The notes under the pieces: model-generated
What the model was told of the DNA's origin: nothing
The model's database searches: none
The model's input: the letters and a program-made list of their open reading frames with translations, nothing else
Translations under genes and position numbers: made by a program
Assembly (NCBI GenBank): GCA_039680605.1
Contig: JBDKTA010000004.1
Coordinates: 256,874-294,431, forward strand
DNA from: Planctomycetaceae bacterium
GTDB taxonomy: Bacteria; Planctomycetota; Phycisphaerae; SM23-33
Direction: 5' to 3'
DNA: 37,558 bases
In this document: one piece after another, positions 692 through 37,558 of the stretch
Layout: each line of letters opens with the position of its first letter
How positions within the stretch are numbered: the first letter of the stretch is position 1

Positions 692-804
692 GGGTGCCAC
701 GCACAACTCCGTTGTGCGTGTCCCTGAACTCAGACCGTCGCAACCTCTCCCGCAACGTTCGGGGATCGTGGCTCTCCGGCCTTTGGCCTGCGCGCCACGG
801 CACC
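692..804. repeat. Two-hairpin palindromic element, copy 1
   Basis: A perfect 10-bp stem (CACGCACAAC, 698-707, with GTTGTGCGTG, 711-720) has a 3-base loop. About 45 bases downstream a second hairpin is built from CGTGGC/GCCACG enclosing GGCC-TTT-GGCC (767-799). The element starts GGTGCCACG and ends CACGGCACC, so the ends also pair imperfectly. A second copy at 16071-16182 has nearly identical ends but an unrelated middle. It fills most of the gap between two convergent genes. Confidence 0.8.
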
Positions 805-9084: not shown

Positions 9085-9097
9085 GGTTTCCTCGTGT

Positions 9098-9141
9098 CGC
9101 GGGCGTCTCGCCCGCGCGTGGCGAGGGCATCTTGCCCTCGC
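9098..9141. repeat. Tandem pair of GTGGC-type hairpins
   Basis: CGCGGGC-GTCTC-GCCCGCG (9098-9116) and GCGAGGGC-ATCTT-GCCCTCGC (9121-9141) are adjacent perfect hairpins with 5-base loops. They separate the GH3 gene from the URO-D-like gene behind it. The loop sequence GTCTC recurs in the copies at 10688-10741 and 16377-16397. Confidence 0.85.
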
Positions 9142-9156
9142 TCCCCGGACAATTCA

Positions 9157-11856
9157 TTATTTCTGAGTACGGGACATCTGCGAAGCGTTCACTACTGCAG
9201 CCTCTTCTACTCGAAGCGTTGCTCTTGCACGAATGTCGTCGCTGGCGGCGCCGACGAGAATGTCGTACAGTCCGCTCTCGACGACCCACCCGCCCTCGTC
9301 GCCGGCTCGCTCATCCCACCACGCCAGATCGTCCACCGCCAGCGGGAGGTCGACCTTGACGGTGCGGCCGGCCTTGATCGCCACGCGCTTGAAGCCCTTG
9401 AGCTGCTTGATCGGCTGGGGCGCCCGCGAGCGGCGGTTATGCACGTAAAGCTGCACCACCTCCTCGCCGTCGCGCGAGCCGGTGTTGGTCACGCTCACGC
9501 TGACGATGACGCGCCCGCCCGGCGAGGCGCTGCCGCGGCTCAGCGCCGCCGGCGAGTACTTGAACGTCGTGTAGCTCAGCCCGTGCCCGAAGGCGTAGAG
9601 CGGCTCCTGGCGCAGGAACATGTACGTGCGGCCGCGGGCGATGTCGTAGTTGTTGAACGGCGGCAGTTGTCCGGTGCTCTTGTAGAACGTCATCGGCAGC
9701 CGCCCGGCCGGGTTGTAGCGGCCCCAGAGCACGTCGGCGATGGCGCGTCCGGCCTGCTCGCCGGGGAACCACGCCTCGAGCACGGCCGGGCAGTGCGCGT
9801 CGACCCAGTTGATCGCCAGCGGTTCGCTGTTGACCAGCACCACGATCGTCCGCGGGTTCACCCGCGCCACGCGGCGGATGAACTTCTCCTGCTCGGCGGG
9901 CAGGTTCAGCGAGAACTTGTCTTTGCCCTCGCCGGCGTACTGCACGTTGGTGCCCAGCACGGCGATGACCACGTCGGCCTGCGCCGCCGCGGCCAGGTAT
10001 GGGTCGTTGCGGCGTGCCATGGCGCCCGCCGGCGGCAGCCATTCGAGCTTCACCGCGGCTGTCACGCCCTCTTCGATGCGCTTGTCCGGCAGGTCGCGAT
10101 ACTCCAGCACAACCGCCGCCTGGTGGCCGGCGGCGAAGGTTACCGCGGCTGCGTCGCGACCGGCTTGGCGCTTGTCCCAATTGTCGATGATCGTGCGGCC
10201 GTCGACGTGCAGCCGCACGCCGCCGCCGCAGGTGACGGCGAGTTGATACTTGCCCGCCGAGGGTGCAGTGAGGGTGCCGCTCCATCGGATCGACAGGGGG
10301 GTGCTGGCGAACATCGGGTCGGGCTGCTGGTCGGCGCGGTGGAACTCGATGCGGGCGTCGACCCGCCGCCCCGCGGGCTTGCCGCGCAGGTCGTGATTGT
10401 GGAAGTATTCCCCCGCCAGCCCCTGCTGCGTTTCGGCGCCGCCTGCGGGGCGCAGGTACATGTCCGGGATCACCATGAAGCCCTTGGCGTCGAGGCTCAG
10501 CCACGGCACGTGCGTGACCTTCACGTTCTTGCCTGCCGCGGCGACGATCCCCGCCAGCGGCGTGATGGGCTCGTTGATCGGTTCGCCGCTGTAATGATGA
10601 TGCTTGTACGTCAGGCAGTTGGGCCCCATGACGGCGATGGACTTGATCTTCGTGTTATCCAGCGGTAGCAAGGGCGCCTTGTTGTGTGGCATGGGCGTCT
10701 CGCCCATGCTCTTGCTGTGTGGCATGGCCGTCTCGGCCATGCTCTTGGATGACAAGACTGGCGCATTCTTGAGCAGCACCATCGACTCGCGCGCGATCTT
10801 CAGCGCCAGCGCCTGGTGCTTGCGGCAGCCGATCACGTCCGGTTTGATCTTGTTGAAGGGCACGCTCTCCGGCTCGTCCAGCAGCCCCAGGCGCATCCGC
10901 CCCTGCAGGATCCGCCAGGCCGCCCGATCGATGTCGCGGCGGCTGACCATCCCGTCCGCCAGCGCCTGCGCCAGCGCCGGATAGCACAGGAAACCGCTGT
11001 CAAGTTCGAGCCCGGCCCTGAGGCACGCCGCGGCCGTCTGCTCGAGCGTGGCCGTGTAGTGGTGCCCCTTCATCACCAGCAGCGTCGAGTTCAAATCGCC
11101 CACCACGTAGCCGTCGAAGCCCCACTGCCAGCGCAGCACCTCGGTCAGCAGGAAGTGATTCGCCGAGCACGGGACGCCGTTGACGGCGTTGTACGCGGCC
11201 ATCAGCGACTGCGCTCCTGCCGCCACGCACGCGCGGTACGCCGGCAGGTAGTACTCGCGCAGCCACCGCTGCGGGATGACCGCTTTGCAACTGAAGCGGT
11301 TGTGCTCTTCGTTGTTGGCGGTGTAGTGCTTGGGCGTGGCGACGGCCTTGATGTATTTCGCGTGGTCGCCCTGGAGACCGCGGACGAAGGCGCTGCCCAT
11401 CAGCGACGTCAGCAGCGGGTCTTCGCCGTAGGTCTCGCCGGTGCGGCCCCAGCGCGGGTCGCGAACCATGTTCACCACCGGCGACCAGAACGTCAGCAGC
11501 CCGTTGTACTTTCCGCCGAAGTCCCCGCCGATCATCCGCCCGCGATTGCGATTGTGCCCCGCCCGCGCCTCGTCGCCGACAGCCGACGCCATCGCGCGGA
11601 TCAACGCCGGATTGAACGTCGCCGCCAGCCCCGTCGGCCGCGGAAACACCGTAAACCGCCCCGGCCGCACCACCCCATGCAACGCCTCGTTGCCATGGTT
11701 GTAAGGCCGTATCCCCAGCCGCGCGATCCCCGGCGCCGTCTCCGACAGCAGCGAGATCTTCTCATCCACCGTCAACCGGACGATCAAATCATCCAGCCGC
11801 CACTCAGACGGCAAGTCCGGATTCTTGTACGCAGGCACATGTTTCTTCGCGGCCAT
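9157..11856 (-). CDS. Glycoside hydrolase family 3 beta-glycosidase with PA14 domain
   Basis: This enzyme should hydrolyse beta-linked glucosides or xylosides with retention. The start at 11856 (MAAKKHVPAY) has GAGG upstream and gives 899 residues without a signal peptide, so it is cytoplasmic. The N-terminal barrel includes KHYTANNEEHNRF and GFDGYVVGDLNST, whose Asp near 254 is the expected nucleophile. The alpha/beta sandwich domain begins near KIKSIAVMGPNC. A PA14 domain is inserted at about 480-607 (GLAGEYFHNHD to VKLEWLPP), as in many GH3 enzymes where it shapes the active site. A fibronectin-III-like domain ends the protein. The loop between VLLKN and LLPLD holds 24 extra residues encoded by two palindromic repeats (10684-10748). 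The URO-D-like gene 72 bases downstream may be co-transcribed. Confidence 0.95.
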   Translation of the reverse strand: MAAKKHVPAYKNPDLPSEWRLDDLIVRLTVDEKISLLSETAPGIARLGIRPYNHGNEALHGVVRPGRFTVFPRPTGLAATFNPALIRAMASAVGDEARAGHNRNRGRMIGGDFGGKYNGLLTFWSPVVNMVRDPRWGRTGETYGEDPLLTSLMGSAFVRGLQGDHAKYIKAVATPKHYTANNEEHNRFSCKAVIPQRWLREYYLPAYRACVAAGAQSLMAAYNAVNGVPCSANHFLLTEVLRWQWGFDGYVVGDLNSTLLVMKGHHYTATLEQTAAACLRAGLELDSGFLCYPALAQALADGMVSRRDIDRAAWRILQGRMRLGLLDEPESVPFNKIKPDVIGCRKHQALALKIARESMVLLKNAPVLSSKSMAETAMPHSKSMGETPMPHNKAPLLPLDNTKIKSIAVMGPNCLTYKHHHYSGEPINEPITPLAGIVAAAGKNVKVTHVPWLSLDAKGFMVIPDMYLRPAGGAETQQGLAGEYFHNHDLRGKPAGRRVDARIEFHRADQQPDPMFASTPLSIRWSGTLTAPSAGKYQLAVTCGGGVRLHVDGRTIIDNWDKRQAGRDAAAVTFAAGHQAAVVLEYRDLPDKRIEEGVTAAVKLEWLPPAGAMARRNDPYLAAAAQADVVIAVLGTNVQYAGEGKDKFSLNLPAEQEKFIRRVARVNPRTIVVLVNSEPLAINWVDAHCPAVLEAWFPGEQAGRAIADVLWGRYNPAGRLPMTFYKSTGQLPPFNNYDIARGRTYMFLRQEPLYAFGHGLSYTTFKYSPAALSRGSASPGGRVIVSVSVTNTGSRDGEEVVQLYVHNRRSRAPQPIKQLKGFKRVAIKAGRTVKVDLPLAVDDLAWWDERAGDEGGWVVESGLYDILVGAASDDIRARATLRVEEAAVVNASQMSRTQK
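10684..10748. repeat. Two GTGGC-type hairpins inserted in frame in the GH3 gene
   Basis: GCATGGGC-GTCTC-GCCCATGC (10688-10708) and GCATGGCC-GTCTC-GGCCATGC (10721-10741) are perfect 8-bp hairpins, each preceded by TGTG and followed by TCTTG. On the coding (minus) strand they encode SKSMAETAMPH and SKSMGETPMPH in tandem. Confidence 0.9.
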
Positions 11857-11917
11857 AGGGGGTTCCTCTGCGCTTTGGCGCGTGAGCGAAGATACTACCG
11901 CGCGGCCGCGATTCATG

Positions 11918-11947
11918 CGACACAGAGACGCAGAGAAAACAGAAGAA
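11918..11947. repeat. CACAGAGACGCAGAG repeat
   Basis: GCGACACAGAGACGCAGAGA lies in the gap between the GH3 start and the next plus-strand gene. It belongs to the CTCTGCG/CGCAGAG family also seen at 3597, 3763, 13537, 13604 and 13751. Confidence 0.6.
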
Positions 11948-12025
11948 TGAGTGAGTTGCATGCCGTGGCAGTAAGATCAACGTTACCCTATTCTAATCAA
12001 ATCGCTCGTGTCGTAAGATTCATGC

Positions 12026-15949: not shown

Positions 15950-16300
15950 CTGAGGTCGCTGAGGACGCTGAGGCCGGAGAGAGACGGGGAGCTGCGGAGA
16001 AGGAGAAGACAGCCACGATGGGGCAGAGCGGCCGTCAGATCGGGGATCCTGGCTCTCCGGGCCGCCACCCGGGTGGCACGCACAACTCCGTTGTGCGTGT
16101 CCCTGACGCCAAAGCCGAAACTCCCACCGCGAGATCAGGGATCGTGGCTCTCCGGGCCTTCGGCCCTGCGCGCCACGGCACCTGGGCTGCTTACTTGTGC
16201 GAAGGCCTGTCTTTCCCGCTCCTCTTTGCCCGCTCTCTCCCGGTCTCCTTCCCCGTCTGTCTTCTTCCTCAGCGTCCTCAACGTCCTCAGCGGCTATTAT
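15950..16300. repeat. Repeat cluster including copy 2 of the two-hairpin element
   Basis: CCGCTGAGG-type units (15951-15977) face an inverted set CCTCAGCGTCCTCAACGTCC (16267-16286). Between them lie a truncated 3' hairpin (GGATCCTGGCTCTCCGGG, 16044-16061) and the full two-hairpin element at 16071-16182. That copy has stem CACGCACAAC (16077-16086) with GTTGTGCGTG (16090-16099), then GTGGC...GGGCC-TTC-GGCCC...GCCAC. No gene is seen in this roughly 570-base interval. Confidence 0.75.
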
Positions 16301-34718: not shown

Positions 34719-36126
34719 GCCGACCGGATTCACCGAATACCAGCGTCAGGACGTGCCGCATCGCCCCGTCGGGCAGCGGGTGAAAGATTTCTTCGAGATC
34801 GATCTGCCCCTGGACGAGGAGGCCCTGCGCACGCAGGCGGCGCGTTGCATGGACTGCGGCATCCCGTTCTGCCACGGCGCCGGCTGCCCGCTGGGCAACC
34901 GCATTCCCGAGTTCAACGACCTGGTTTACCAGAACCGCTGGGCCGAGGCGCTGGAGATCCTGCACTCGACGAACAACTTCCCCGAGATCACCGGGCGCAT
35001 CTGCCCGGCGCCGTGCGAGGCCTCCTGCACGCTCAACATCAATGACGACGCGGTGCTCATCAAGCACATCGAACTGCAGATCGCCGAGCGCGGCTGGGAG
35101 CAGGGCTGGATCAAGCCCATGCCCGCCGCCGTCAAGAGCGGGCAGCGCGTCGCCGTGATCGGCAGCGGGCCGGCGGGCCTGGCGGCCGCCCAGCAACTGG
35201 CCCGCATGGGTCACGACGTGGTGGTGTTCGAGAAAGACGCCCGCCCCGGCGGGCTGCTGCGGTACGGTATTCCCGACTTCAAGCTCGACAAGCGCATTCT
35301 CGACCGCCGCATCGAGCAGATGAAGGCCGAGGGCGTCGAGTTCCAGTGCAACGCCGTCATCGGTGAAGATCTCTCGGGCAAGTACCTGCGCAACCGCTTC
35401 CAGGCTATCGTGCTGACGATGGGGGCCGGTCGCCCGCGAGAACTGGACGTGCCCGGTCGCGGGCTCGAGAACGTACACCTGGCGATGGAGTACCTCGCTC
35501 AGCAGAACCGCATCAACAGCGGCGAGATCGTCGACGGCGACATCATCTCGGCCAAGGGGCGCGTGGTGGTGGTCATCGGCGGCGGCGACACCGGCAGCGA
35601 CTGCGTCGGAACCGCCCGCCGCCAGGGCGCCCGCGAGATTCACCAGTACGAGATCCTCCCCCAGCCGCCGCGCCGCCGCCCGTCCGACACGCCCTGGCCG
35701 ACGTGGCCGCGGATCCTGCGCACCTCGTCCAGCCACGAAGAAGGCTGCACCCGACGCTGGTGCGTGCTGACCAAGCGCCTCAGCGGCATCGGCGAGACCG
35801 TGCGCGAGCTGCACGGCATCGAGGTCGCCTGGACGCACAAGGGCGGGCGATGGGACATGAAGGAAGTGCCCGGCACGAACTTCACCCAGGCCGCCGACCT
35901 GGTGCTCATCGCGATGGGCTTCGTACACGTCGAACACAGCGGCCTGGTGGAAGACCTCGGCTGCCAGCTCGACGAGCGCGGCAACGTGAAGATCGCCAAC
36001 TGCGCCACCAGCGTCCCGGGCGTCTATGCCGCCGGCGACGCCCAGTCCGGCGCCTCGCTGGTGGTCCGAGCCATCGCCAGCGGCCGAGAAACCGCCGCCG
36101 CCGTCGACAAATACCTCCGCCCGTAA
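34711..36126 (+). CDS. gltD: Glutamate synthase small (beta) subunit
   Basis: GltD takes electrons from NAD(P)H through FAD and iron-sulphur centres to GltB. The 471-residue protein has the N-terminal Cys set ([20 protein letters not shown] and [11 protein letters not shown]), and the FAD fold [19 protein letters not shown] with [15 protein letters not shown]. The nucleotide fold is [20 protein letters not shown], and the closing segment is [26 protein letters not shown] precedes the ATG, which overlaps the gltB stop (ATGGGTAA). A TAA stop at 36124-36126 is directly joined to a large palindrome, which may act as a transcription end or be a mobile repeat. Confidence 0.97.
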
Positions 36127-36216
36127 TATGGAGTGCGGCAGCCGTAGCTGCCGCTTTAAGAGTTGTCGGATTCCAGAAACTTCCAAAGCGGCAGCTAAGG
36201 CTGCCGCACTCCATAT
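36126..36216. repeat. 32-bp near-perfect inverted repeat abutting the gltD stop
   Basis: Arms 36126-36157 and 36185-36216 are 32 bases each with one mismatch, around a 27-base loop. They begin ATATGGAGTGCGGCAGCC. The left arm shares its first base with the gltD stop. A further one-armed copy (TGTGGAGTGCGGCAGCCTTA) joins the stop of the next gene at 37414. Confidence 0.9.
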
Positions 36217-36265: not shown

Positions 36266-37414
36266 ATGCCGACCAACGATCAGAAAGCCGAAGTATTGCG
36301 GGCGTATCGGGCGCGCACGCCTGTTCGCGTGCCAGTCACGTATGGGGCCAATCCGCGCGTGGTGGTGCTTGATCCGGCGTGGAACCCGCACGGGATCACG
36401 TTTGAAGATTACTTCACGCGGGCCGATGCGATGATCGAGTCGCAGCTTGGCCTGCTGGAGTACAAGGCCCAGTTTCTGAACAACTACTGCGACGATCCCA
36501 CCGGGCGGCCGGCCGCGTGGAGCTTCTATGTCGACGCGATGAACAGCTACGACTCGTTGTACTTCGGCTGTCCGATCCACTATCGCGACGACGAAGTGCC
36601 CGACACCCAGCCGATCCTGGCCGGGACGGACAAGGAGAAGATATTCTCCGTCGACCTCGACCACCCGCTGGACAATCCGTTCATCCGCCGGCGTCTGCAA
36701 CTCTATGACAACATGAAGGCCGCCGTCGCGGGCATGTCGTATCACGGCGTGCAACTGGGCGTGGCCGCCCCGGCGATGGGCTTCGACGGCCATCTGACCA
36801 TCGCCACGTGCCTGCGCGGCGGGGAGTTGTACAGCGACTTCTATGAGGACCCGCCCTACGTGCGGCGTCTGCTGGACTTCATCGGCCGCGCGGTCGTCAT
36901 CCGCAACAACACCTTGAACGAGAAGTTCGGCCTAAACCCCTTCGCGGCCGCGGGCGGGTTCTTCGCCGACGATTCGATCCAACTGATTTCCGGCACCATG
37001 TACCGCCAGTTCCTGCTGCCGCTGCACCGGCAGTGGTACGCCCAGTGGAGCGGCGGGGGTCCGCACGGCATCCATCTCTGCGGCGACGCGACGCGGCACT
37101 TCGGCGTCATCGCGAGCGAACTGAACGTGCGATCGTTCGACACGGGCTTTCCCGTCGACCACGGCGCGCTGCGCAGGGAACTGGGGCCGGACGTCGAGAT
37201 CCTCGGCGGGCCGGAGGTCGGACTGCTGCTGCACGGCACGAGCGAGGCCGTCTACGCGCGCACGGCGGGGATCCTCAACTCCGGTATCAAGGAAGGCGGC
37301 CGCTTTGTTCTGCGAGAGGCCAACAACTTGCCCCCGCGCGTGAGTGAGGCGAACCTGGCGGCGATGTACCGCGCATGCCTCGACCACGGCTGGCATGGGA
37401 CGCCGCAGGCGTAA
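36266..37414 (+). CDS. URO-D-fold protein, second copy
   Basis: This 382-residue protein also belongs to the URO-D superfamily but is far from the copy at 7999-9084. The N-terminus has RTPVRVPVTYGANPRVV. The barrel shows MFDG-like GFDGHLTIATCLRGGELYSD, GGFFADDSIQLISGTMYRQF and the GPHGIHLCGDATRHFGVIAS segment, with His and Cys at the position used for metal binding in MtaA-type members. SFDTGFPVDHGALRREL, then ILGGPEVGLLLHGT, matches the usual strand that follows. Substrate unknown; a methyltransferase or decarboxylase role is guesswork. ATG 36266 has no strong ribosome binding site, but the frame further upstream runs through the palindrome and is unlikely to be coding. Confidence 0.75.
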   Translation: MPTNDQKAEVLRAYRARTPVRVPVTYGANPRVVVLDPAWNPHGITFEDYFTRADAMIESQLGLLEYKAQFLNNYCDDPTGRPAAWSFYVDAMNSYDSLYFGCPIHYRDDEVPDTQPILAGTDKEKIFSVDLDHPLDNPFIRRRLQLYDNMKAAVAGMSYHGVQLGVAAPAMGFDGHLTIATCLRGGELYSDFYEDPPYVRRLLDFIGRAVVIRNNTLNEKFGLNPFAAAGGFFADDSIQLISGTMYRQFLLPLHRQWYAQWSGGGPHGIHLCGDATRHFGVIASELNVRSFDTGFPVDHGALRRELGPDVEILGGPEVGLLLHGTSEAVYARTAGILNSGIKEGGRFVLREANNLPPRVSEANLAAMYRACLDHGWHGTPQA

Positions 37415-37558
37415 TGTGGAGTGCGGCAGCCTTAGCCCAACTTCCGCAGTTATAGATTTATGCAGATTATTTTCGGTCGATTTGTGCAGGAATGGCGGTG
37501 CAATGGCGGCATTCTGCTACCCCAAAGGGTCTTTTCACTTGTTTTGGATCCGATCAGC
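37415..37558. other. Window end without a gene
   Basis: The TAA stop at 37412-37414 is followed at once by a partial copy of the GGAGTGCGGCAGCCTTAGC palindrome. About 120 A/T-richer bases follow in which I see no gene or clear signal. Confidence 0.6.

Follow-up and report, generated by a model that had tools for sequence, protein, structure and literature searches.

An in-frame REP pair in a GH3 glycoside hydrolase gene and RAYT transposases nested in host genes

The GH3 gene and its insert

The window, by which we mean the whole stretch of 37,558 nucleotides analysed, contains a GH3 glycoside hydrolase gene that carries two tagged hairpins in frame, with further REPs outside the gene. The features are as follows, with the basis of each call in brackets where one applies.

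9157..11961, minus strand: host gene, GH3 glycoside hydrolase with PA14 and Fn3-like domains (Pfam, PDB relatives)
10673..10759, minus strand: in-frame insert of 87 bp (29 codons) in the GH3 gene (no counterpart in homologues; joined flanks)
10686..10708, plus strand: REP 1, GTGG tag and CATGGGC-GTCTC-GCCCATG hairpin, in tandem unit 10678-10710 (pattern, folding)
10719..10741, plus strand: REP 2, GTGG tag and CATGGCC-GTCTC-GGCCATG hairpin, in tandem unit 10711-10743 (pattern, folding)
9094..9140, plus strand: two further REPs of the same class, with GTGT-CGCGGGC and GTGG-CGAGGGC stems, just past the GH3 stop codon
16377..16399, minus strand: single GTAG-tagged REP with a CACGGGC stem, elsewhere in the window

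Counted from the first start codon, the GH3 product comprises 934 aa, although a later start at MAAKKH is possible. Pfam places GH3_N at residues 90-352 and GH3_C from residue 427, in addition to the PA14 and Fn3-like domains. Residues Asp289 and Glu678 are invariant in the homologue alignment, and we take their motifs to hold the GH3 nucleophile and acid/base. An AlphaFold2 model of the protein, built with three sequences, had a mean pLDDT of 38.7 and was not used as evidence. The genome holds at least one other GH3 gene (C44:34174-36303), as might suit a decaying pseudogene in which the insert is tolerated without selection, but this is very unlikely, as the 934-aa frame is intact, Asp289 and Glu678 are invariant, and comparable inserts are found in single-copy essential genes of relatives. 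The enzyme is predicted, plausibly, to retain activity with the insert in place.

The original prediction described a tandem hairpin repeat lying in frame in this enzyme. Two hairpins are indeed present (10686-10708 and 10719-10741), with no REP pattern matches expected in the window from shuffled sequence, and the insert encodes the peptide SKSMAETAMPH-SKSMGETPMPHNK exactly as first written. The insert is extra relative to homologues, as proposed, but its length had been put at 24 residues, where the full insert spans 29 codons. VLLKN and LLPL, said to lie normally close together, are separated by 2-3 residues in eight of eight GH3 homologues from relatives; two named homologues from other phyla likewise align without the insert, bringing the total lacking it to 10, all at no more than about 50% identity to the GH3 protein. 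Removal of the 87 bp joins the flanks as ESMVLLKNAPLLPLDNTK, which reads VLLKN-AP-LLPL. The insert sits, as anticipated, in a loop between domains: barrel matches stop near residue 405 and GH3_C begins at residue 427. Beyond the REP units, the insert also holds AGTCTTGTCATCC on the gene strand. Direct repeats of GGCGC bound it (10673-10677 and 10760-10764); these may be due to chance, and since a target duplication is not expected of the Y1 transposase class, we do not claim one.

REPs across the genome and within its genes

The two REPs of the GH3 gene are head-to-tail 33-bp units set apart by one paired stem change. Tag and hairpin together measure 23 nt, within the 20-40 bp of REP palindromes, and as single-stranded DNA each unit folds with -11.6 kcal/mol, about -6 in z-score against shuffles. 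The 5.23-Mb genome contains 363 pattern matches (184 and 179), compared with 1 and 0 for a reversed control pattern. In a sample of about 1.0 Mb, whose stretches were chosen partly around REPs and which thus favours REP-rich places over a genome-wide rate, 293 hairpins with GTRG-like tags were found against 14 in the reversed sequence; 163 carry GTGG and 74 GTAG (237/293 together). Six stem classes in this sample occur with their matching complement (CATGGGC, CACGGGC, CATGGCC, CGCGGGC, CGAGGGC and CGCGGAC), so the stems co-vary. The hairpin pair in the GH3 gene thus consists of GTRG-tagged REP elements by its tag, palindrome, copy number and compensated stems. The CGTC-tagged REP class was considered and rejected, because CGTC occurs only across the stem-loop junction, at the loop, and the end tag is GTRG. 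Among related genomes, REP matches are patchy, occurring in 25 of 40, a few of which carry dozens.

These repeats resemble the published GTAG/GTGG REPs (Di Nocera et al. 2013, PMC3733652; Nunvar et al. 2010, PMC2817692) in combining a hairpin of 20-40 bp and a 5' GTRG tag with copy numbers above 100 and stems that co-vary, in tandem or inverted grouping, and in a location mostly just after genes. The tag and hairpin of the published repeats are exemplified by GTGGCGAGGGAGCTTGCTCCCGCT (PMC2817692), and the GH3 REPs come close to Pflu2, a REP of Pseudomonas fluorescens. They differ in stem family and lineage, in a GTGG unit whose six frames all lack stops, in their many in-frame intragenic copies, and in a RAYT nested in a gene.

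The original prediction expected further copies of the repeat in the genome, and ETPMPH- or ETAMPH-type peptides as its footprints. Copies number in the hundreds, the footprint peptides recur in other long ORFs, and no homologue was found with unrelated DNA inserted at the same place. An ordinary lineage-specific loop extension, with palindromic DNA arising by chance and no mobile element, would suit an in-frame insert in a loop where length variation is common; it is scarcely credible given that the same DNA unit appears hundreds of times in unrelated contexts and frames, including right after stop codons. The prediction named neither the GTRG-tagged REP family nor a RAYT, and the in-frame transposase described below lay outside the DNA in its view.

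A census of 100 REP clusters in the sample of about 1.0 Mb, with gene calls based on codon usage and Pfam, placed 14 inside coding sequence whose reading frame runs uninterrupted across the cluster; among the 100, no host gene had clearly lost its frame. Sixteen remaining clusters lie between coding regions of the same strand; 14 of these start no more than 26 nt after the upstream stop codon, a position typical of REPs, and the other two extend gene ends. Pfam-supported hosts of in-frame REPs include a Ser/Thr kinase, KsgA, a sulfatase, a U32 peptidase with six REPs, a lactate-racemase-like protein, an RNase HII-like protein, a GT9 glycosyltransferase, an FtsX permease and a PQQ protein. Intragenic in-frame REPs have already been reported from Opitutus terrae and Rickettsia, in uvrA, recB and other genes (PMC3733652), and the present ones are therefore a new example of a known phenomenon.

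Tandem units often repeat every 33 bp, which is a multiple of three, and the absence of stops from all six frames of the GTGG unit would aid the survival of insertions. Retention of the GH3 copy for a host function, such as mRNA stability, termination or supercoiling, is unlikely: many REPs do directly follow stop codons, as described in other bacteria (PMC3733652), but the GH3 pair lies in the middle of its gene, and the range of host genes shows no apparent selectivity.

Three individual loci are worth recording. In the Ser/Thr kinase (G000:C6:41474-43066; L102:9475-11067:-), three in-frame REPs occupy the activation loop between DFGLAK and GTPRYMAPE and may affect kinase control. A REP pair links a GH2 gene and a GNAT acetyltransferase gene into a single open frame (G000:C33:36921-39359; L122:4922-7360:-), and the C-terminal end of an AddB-like nuclease ORF is a six-unit REP array (G000:C9:145064-148780; L105:2065-5781:+).

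RAYT transposases nested in host genes

The genome contains 15 Y1_Tnp genes, only one of which (C4:19439-19612) is flanked by the GTGG REP family. Two REPs lie on one side and three inverted REPs on the other, the canonical RAYT layout, and the gene resides within etfB, on the same contig as the GH3 gene. The nested loci are listed here.

G000:C4:18785-20419 (L003:1006-2640), minus strand: etfB ORF of 545 aa with a complete REP-flanked RAYT in frame (Pfam)
L156-L162 and L245-L295: nested RAYT loci of relatives, in ValRS, LeuRS, IleRS, PurH, RdgB, MiaA, DinG and restriction/methyltransferase genes

The etfB ORF has a Pfam Y1_Tnp match, and the RAYT splits its ETF domain into profile positions 2-88 and 87-180 within one ORF. 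An etfA-like gene adjoins it; a second ETF pair lies at C50, so the RAYT-bearing etfB is not the sole etfB of the genome. Judged by its flanking REPs, the etfB-borne RAYT is likely cognate to the GTGG REPs.

In related genomes, RAYTs occur in frame in further genes. The RAYT of etfB recurs in frame in ValRS (52-57% identical) in several genera, at a single site between FYYLRYPL and THVTVATTRPETMLGDTA, bordered on both sides by REP-encoded peptides, and in one genome (G006) it occupies a second, C-terminal ValRS site. Across 397 genomes of the class, with nesting judged by Pfam or by eye on host flanks, in-frame hosts comprise ValRS (three sites), LeuRS (two sites), IleRS, PurH, RdgB/Ham1, MiaA, DinG-like helicases, ThiD2-ThiE, and restriction or methyltransferase genes. 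The nested RAYTs of this survey fall into two groups, and ValRS and LeuRS carry insertions ahead of the TTRPET/TTRPDT editing motif. GTRG-tagged hairpins lie upstream of the RAYT at 54 of 60 loci and downstream, inverted, at 50 of 60. No second valS accompanies the RAYT-bearing one in G006, G015, G020 or G027, and the same holds for leuS in seven genomes and for purH in six; three genomes with nested RAYTs (G263, G070 and G094) are single contigs or nearly so.

In most class members examined, the RAYT is nested in frame and is not a free-standing gene. RAYT ORFs of at least 450 aa make up 43 of 71 hits in the class versus about 23 of 100 outside it by hand count, a length difference that serves only as a hint, because GC-rich genomes have long antisense ORFs and a long ORF alone does not prove nesting. 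In the rest of the phylum, most RAYTs are free-standing ORFs of 200-300 aa, though there are exceptions.

All 60 RAYTs aligned retain the HUH motif, in one case as HAH, and a pattern search picked up Y-x3-NP in 39 of 60. In two pairs compared, RAYT dN/dS is about 0.08-0.09. Of 58 nested RAYTs, 28 lack an ATG in the stretch that runs from 45 codons ahead of the RAYT core start to 10 codons past it, and two lack GTG and TTG there as well. Error or decay is unlikely for these genes given the single-copy hosts, genomes in one or nearly one contig, retained HUH motif, low dN/dS and missing ATG.

The same figures bear on whether REPs are translated at all. Ribosome bypass (byp-like) or mRNA processing might leave a normal GH3 protein, and the stability of the hairpins and insertions into conserved proteins, for example the kinase activation loop, would fit such a mechanism. 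It is nevertheless quite unlikely: bypass would not require frame keeping, yet the clusters within genes leave the frame open and no clearly broken host was seen, and the low dN/dS and the 28 RAYTs without a nearby ATG make the nested RAYTs look translated with their hosts. Intein splicing was also considered and judged unlikely, with no intein or Hint domain hit by Pfam in the fusion ORFs scanned.

In two genomes of one genus (G022 and G132), ValRS is 91% identical and the RAYT only 62%, while in another pair RAYT DNA is 87% identical against 76-79% for ValRS. These mismatches suggest that RAYT cassettes are replaced at, or return to, the same ValRS site. The correlation between ValRS and RAYT distances is weak (Spearman 0.34, Mantel p 0.03), and the RAYT gene tree, with most deep forks open, is compatible with a single as well as a repeated origin of the ValRS site.

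A proposed mobile system housed in coding sequence

We propose, with a probability of roughly 0.87, that the GH3 insert is a REP pair of a RAYT/REP system, inserted as 87 bp in the interdomain loop and translated as 29 residues, with a RAYT as its likely mover. The proposal draws on REP anatomy, copy number, stem co-variation, the empty site, frame retention, RAYT-REP geometry and the in-frame RAYTs in single-copy housekeeping genes of relatives, all read from sequence. A Y1 HUH single-strand transposase (RAYT/TnpA_REP), presumably the etfB-borne one, would recognise tag and hairpin and move the REP pair, the 87-bp piece entering the loop that joins the two GH3 domains. RAYTs are known to cleave single-stranded REPs at dinucleotides selected with help of the tag (PMC8266576). 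REP insertions into genes are probably frequent, with mostly the frame-keeping, loop-placed ones surviving, and the same filter acting on whole REP-RAYT cassettes would leave those that lie in frame in essential genes.

In this bacterial class, REP-RAYT cassettes would then probably be long-term, unspliced, in-frame guests of essential single-copy genes, with ValRS, LeuRS, IleRS, PurH, RdgB, MiaA, DinG and EtfB as the named hosts, and insertions of the GH3 type would be their by-products. The GH3 insert itself is an ordinary REP pair, within a system whose lifestyle is unusual in being unspliced and frame-kept in essential genes. Since many nested RAYTs lack their own start codon, their transposase would arise only within the host protein, and the host enzyme would presumably remain active in the fused product. 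Because a frameshift or stop in the nested RAYT would inactivate the host gene too, the transposase would be shielded from loss.

Inteins offer a parallel: they are self-splicing and bring a mobile enzyme, in frame, into recurrent positions of conserved housekeeping genes. The nested RAYTs share this residence but gave no splicing-domain hit in the Pfam scans, and the insert would remain in the mature protein; theirs would be an intein-like strategy without splicing. Rickettsia palindromic elements, as cited in PMC3733652, likewise are palindromes that have entered numerous protein genes in frame, with evidence of expression for some; they differ in sequence and tag, and the literature examined reports no RAYT nested in host genes.

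Known RAYT/TnpA_REP proteins, REPtrons and REPINs (PMC2817692, PMC6006769, PMC8049555) share with the present system the Y1_Tnp domain, HUH and Y-x3-NP motifs, inverted REP flanks and few copies per genome. Known RAYTs, however, are described as free-standing, with median lengths of 148-325 aa, whereas those described here lie in frame inside other proteins. A few unexpectedly long RAYT proteins were previously ascribed to gene fusion or annotation error and discarded (PMC6006769), and in the open-licence literature we found no description of RAYTs nested in frame in essential genes.

REPs and RAYTs occur widely, RAYTs are described as single-copy, vertically inherited genes (PMC8049555), and their long persistence is an open question. 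In-frame residence in essential genes would, if true, answer it directly, since loss by decay becomes lethal. REP and RAYT insertion would also be a route by which housekeeping enzymes gain peptides and entire domains from mobile DNA. A point of caution for annotation is that an aminoacyl-tRNA synthetase or PurH of unusual length in these genomes can contain a transposase domain.

Two other repeats were noted. A second palindromic family, GGTGC-CACGCACAA-CTCCG-TTGTGCGTG-TCCC, occurs in the window at 698-720 (+) and 16077-16099 (+), with 16 copies in 418 kb; it reads GATHNSVVRVPD in frame and adjoins GTGG REPs in several ORFs. A separate inverted repeat, ATATGGAGTGCGGCAGCCGTAGCTGCCGC, lies at 36126-36164 and 36178-36216, with a further copy at 37410-37436, near the end of the window.
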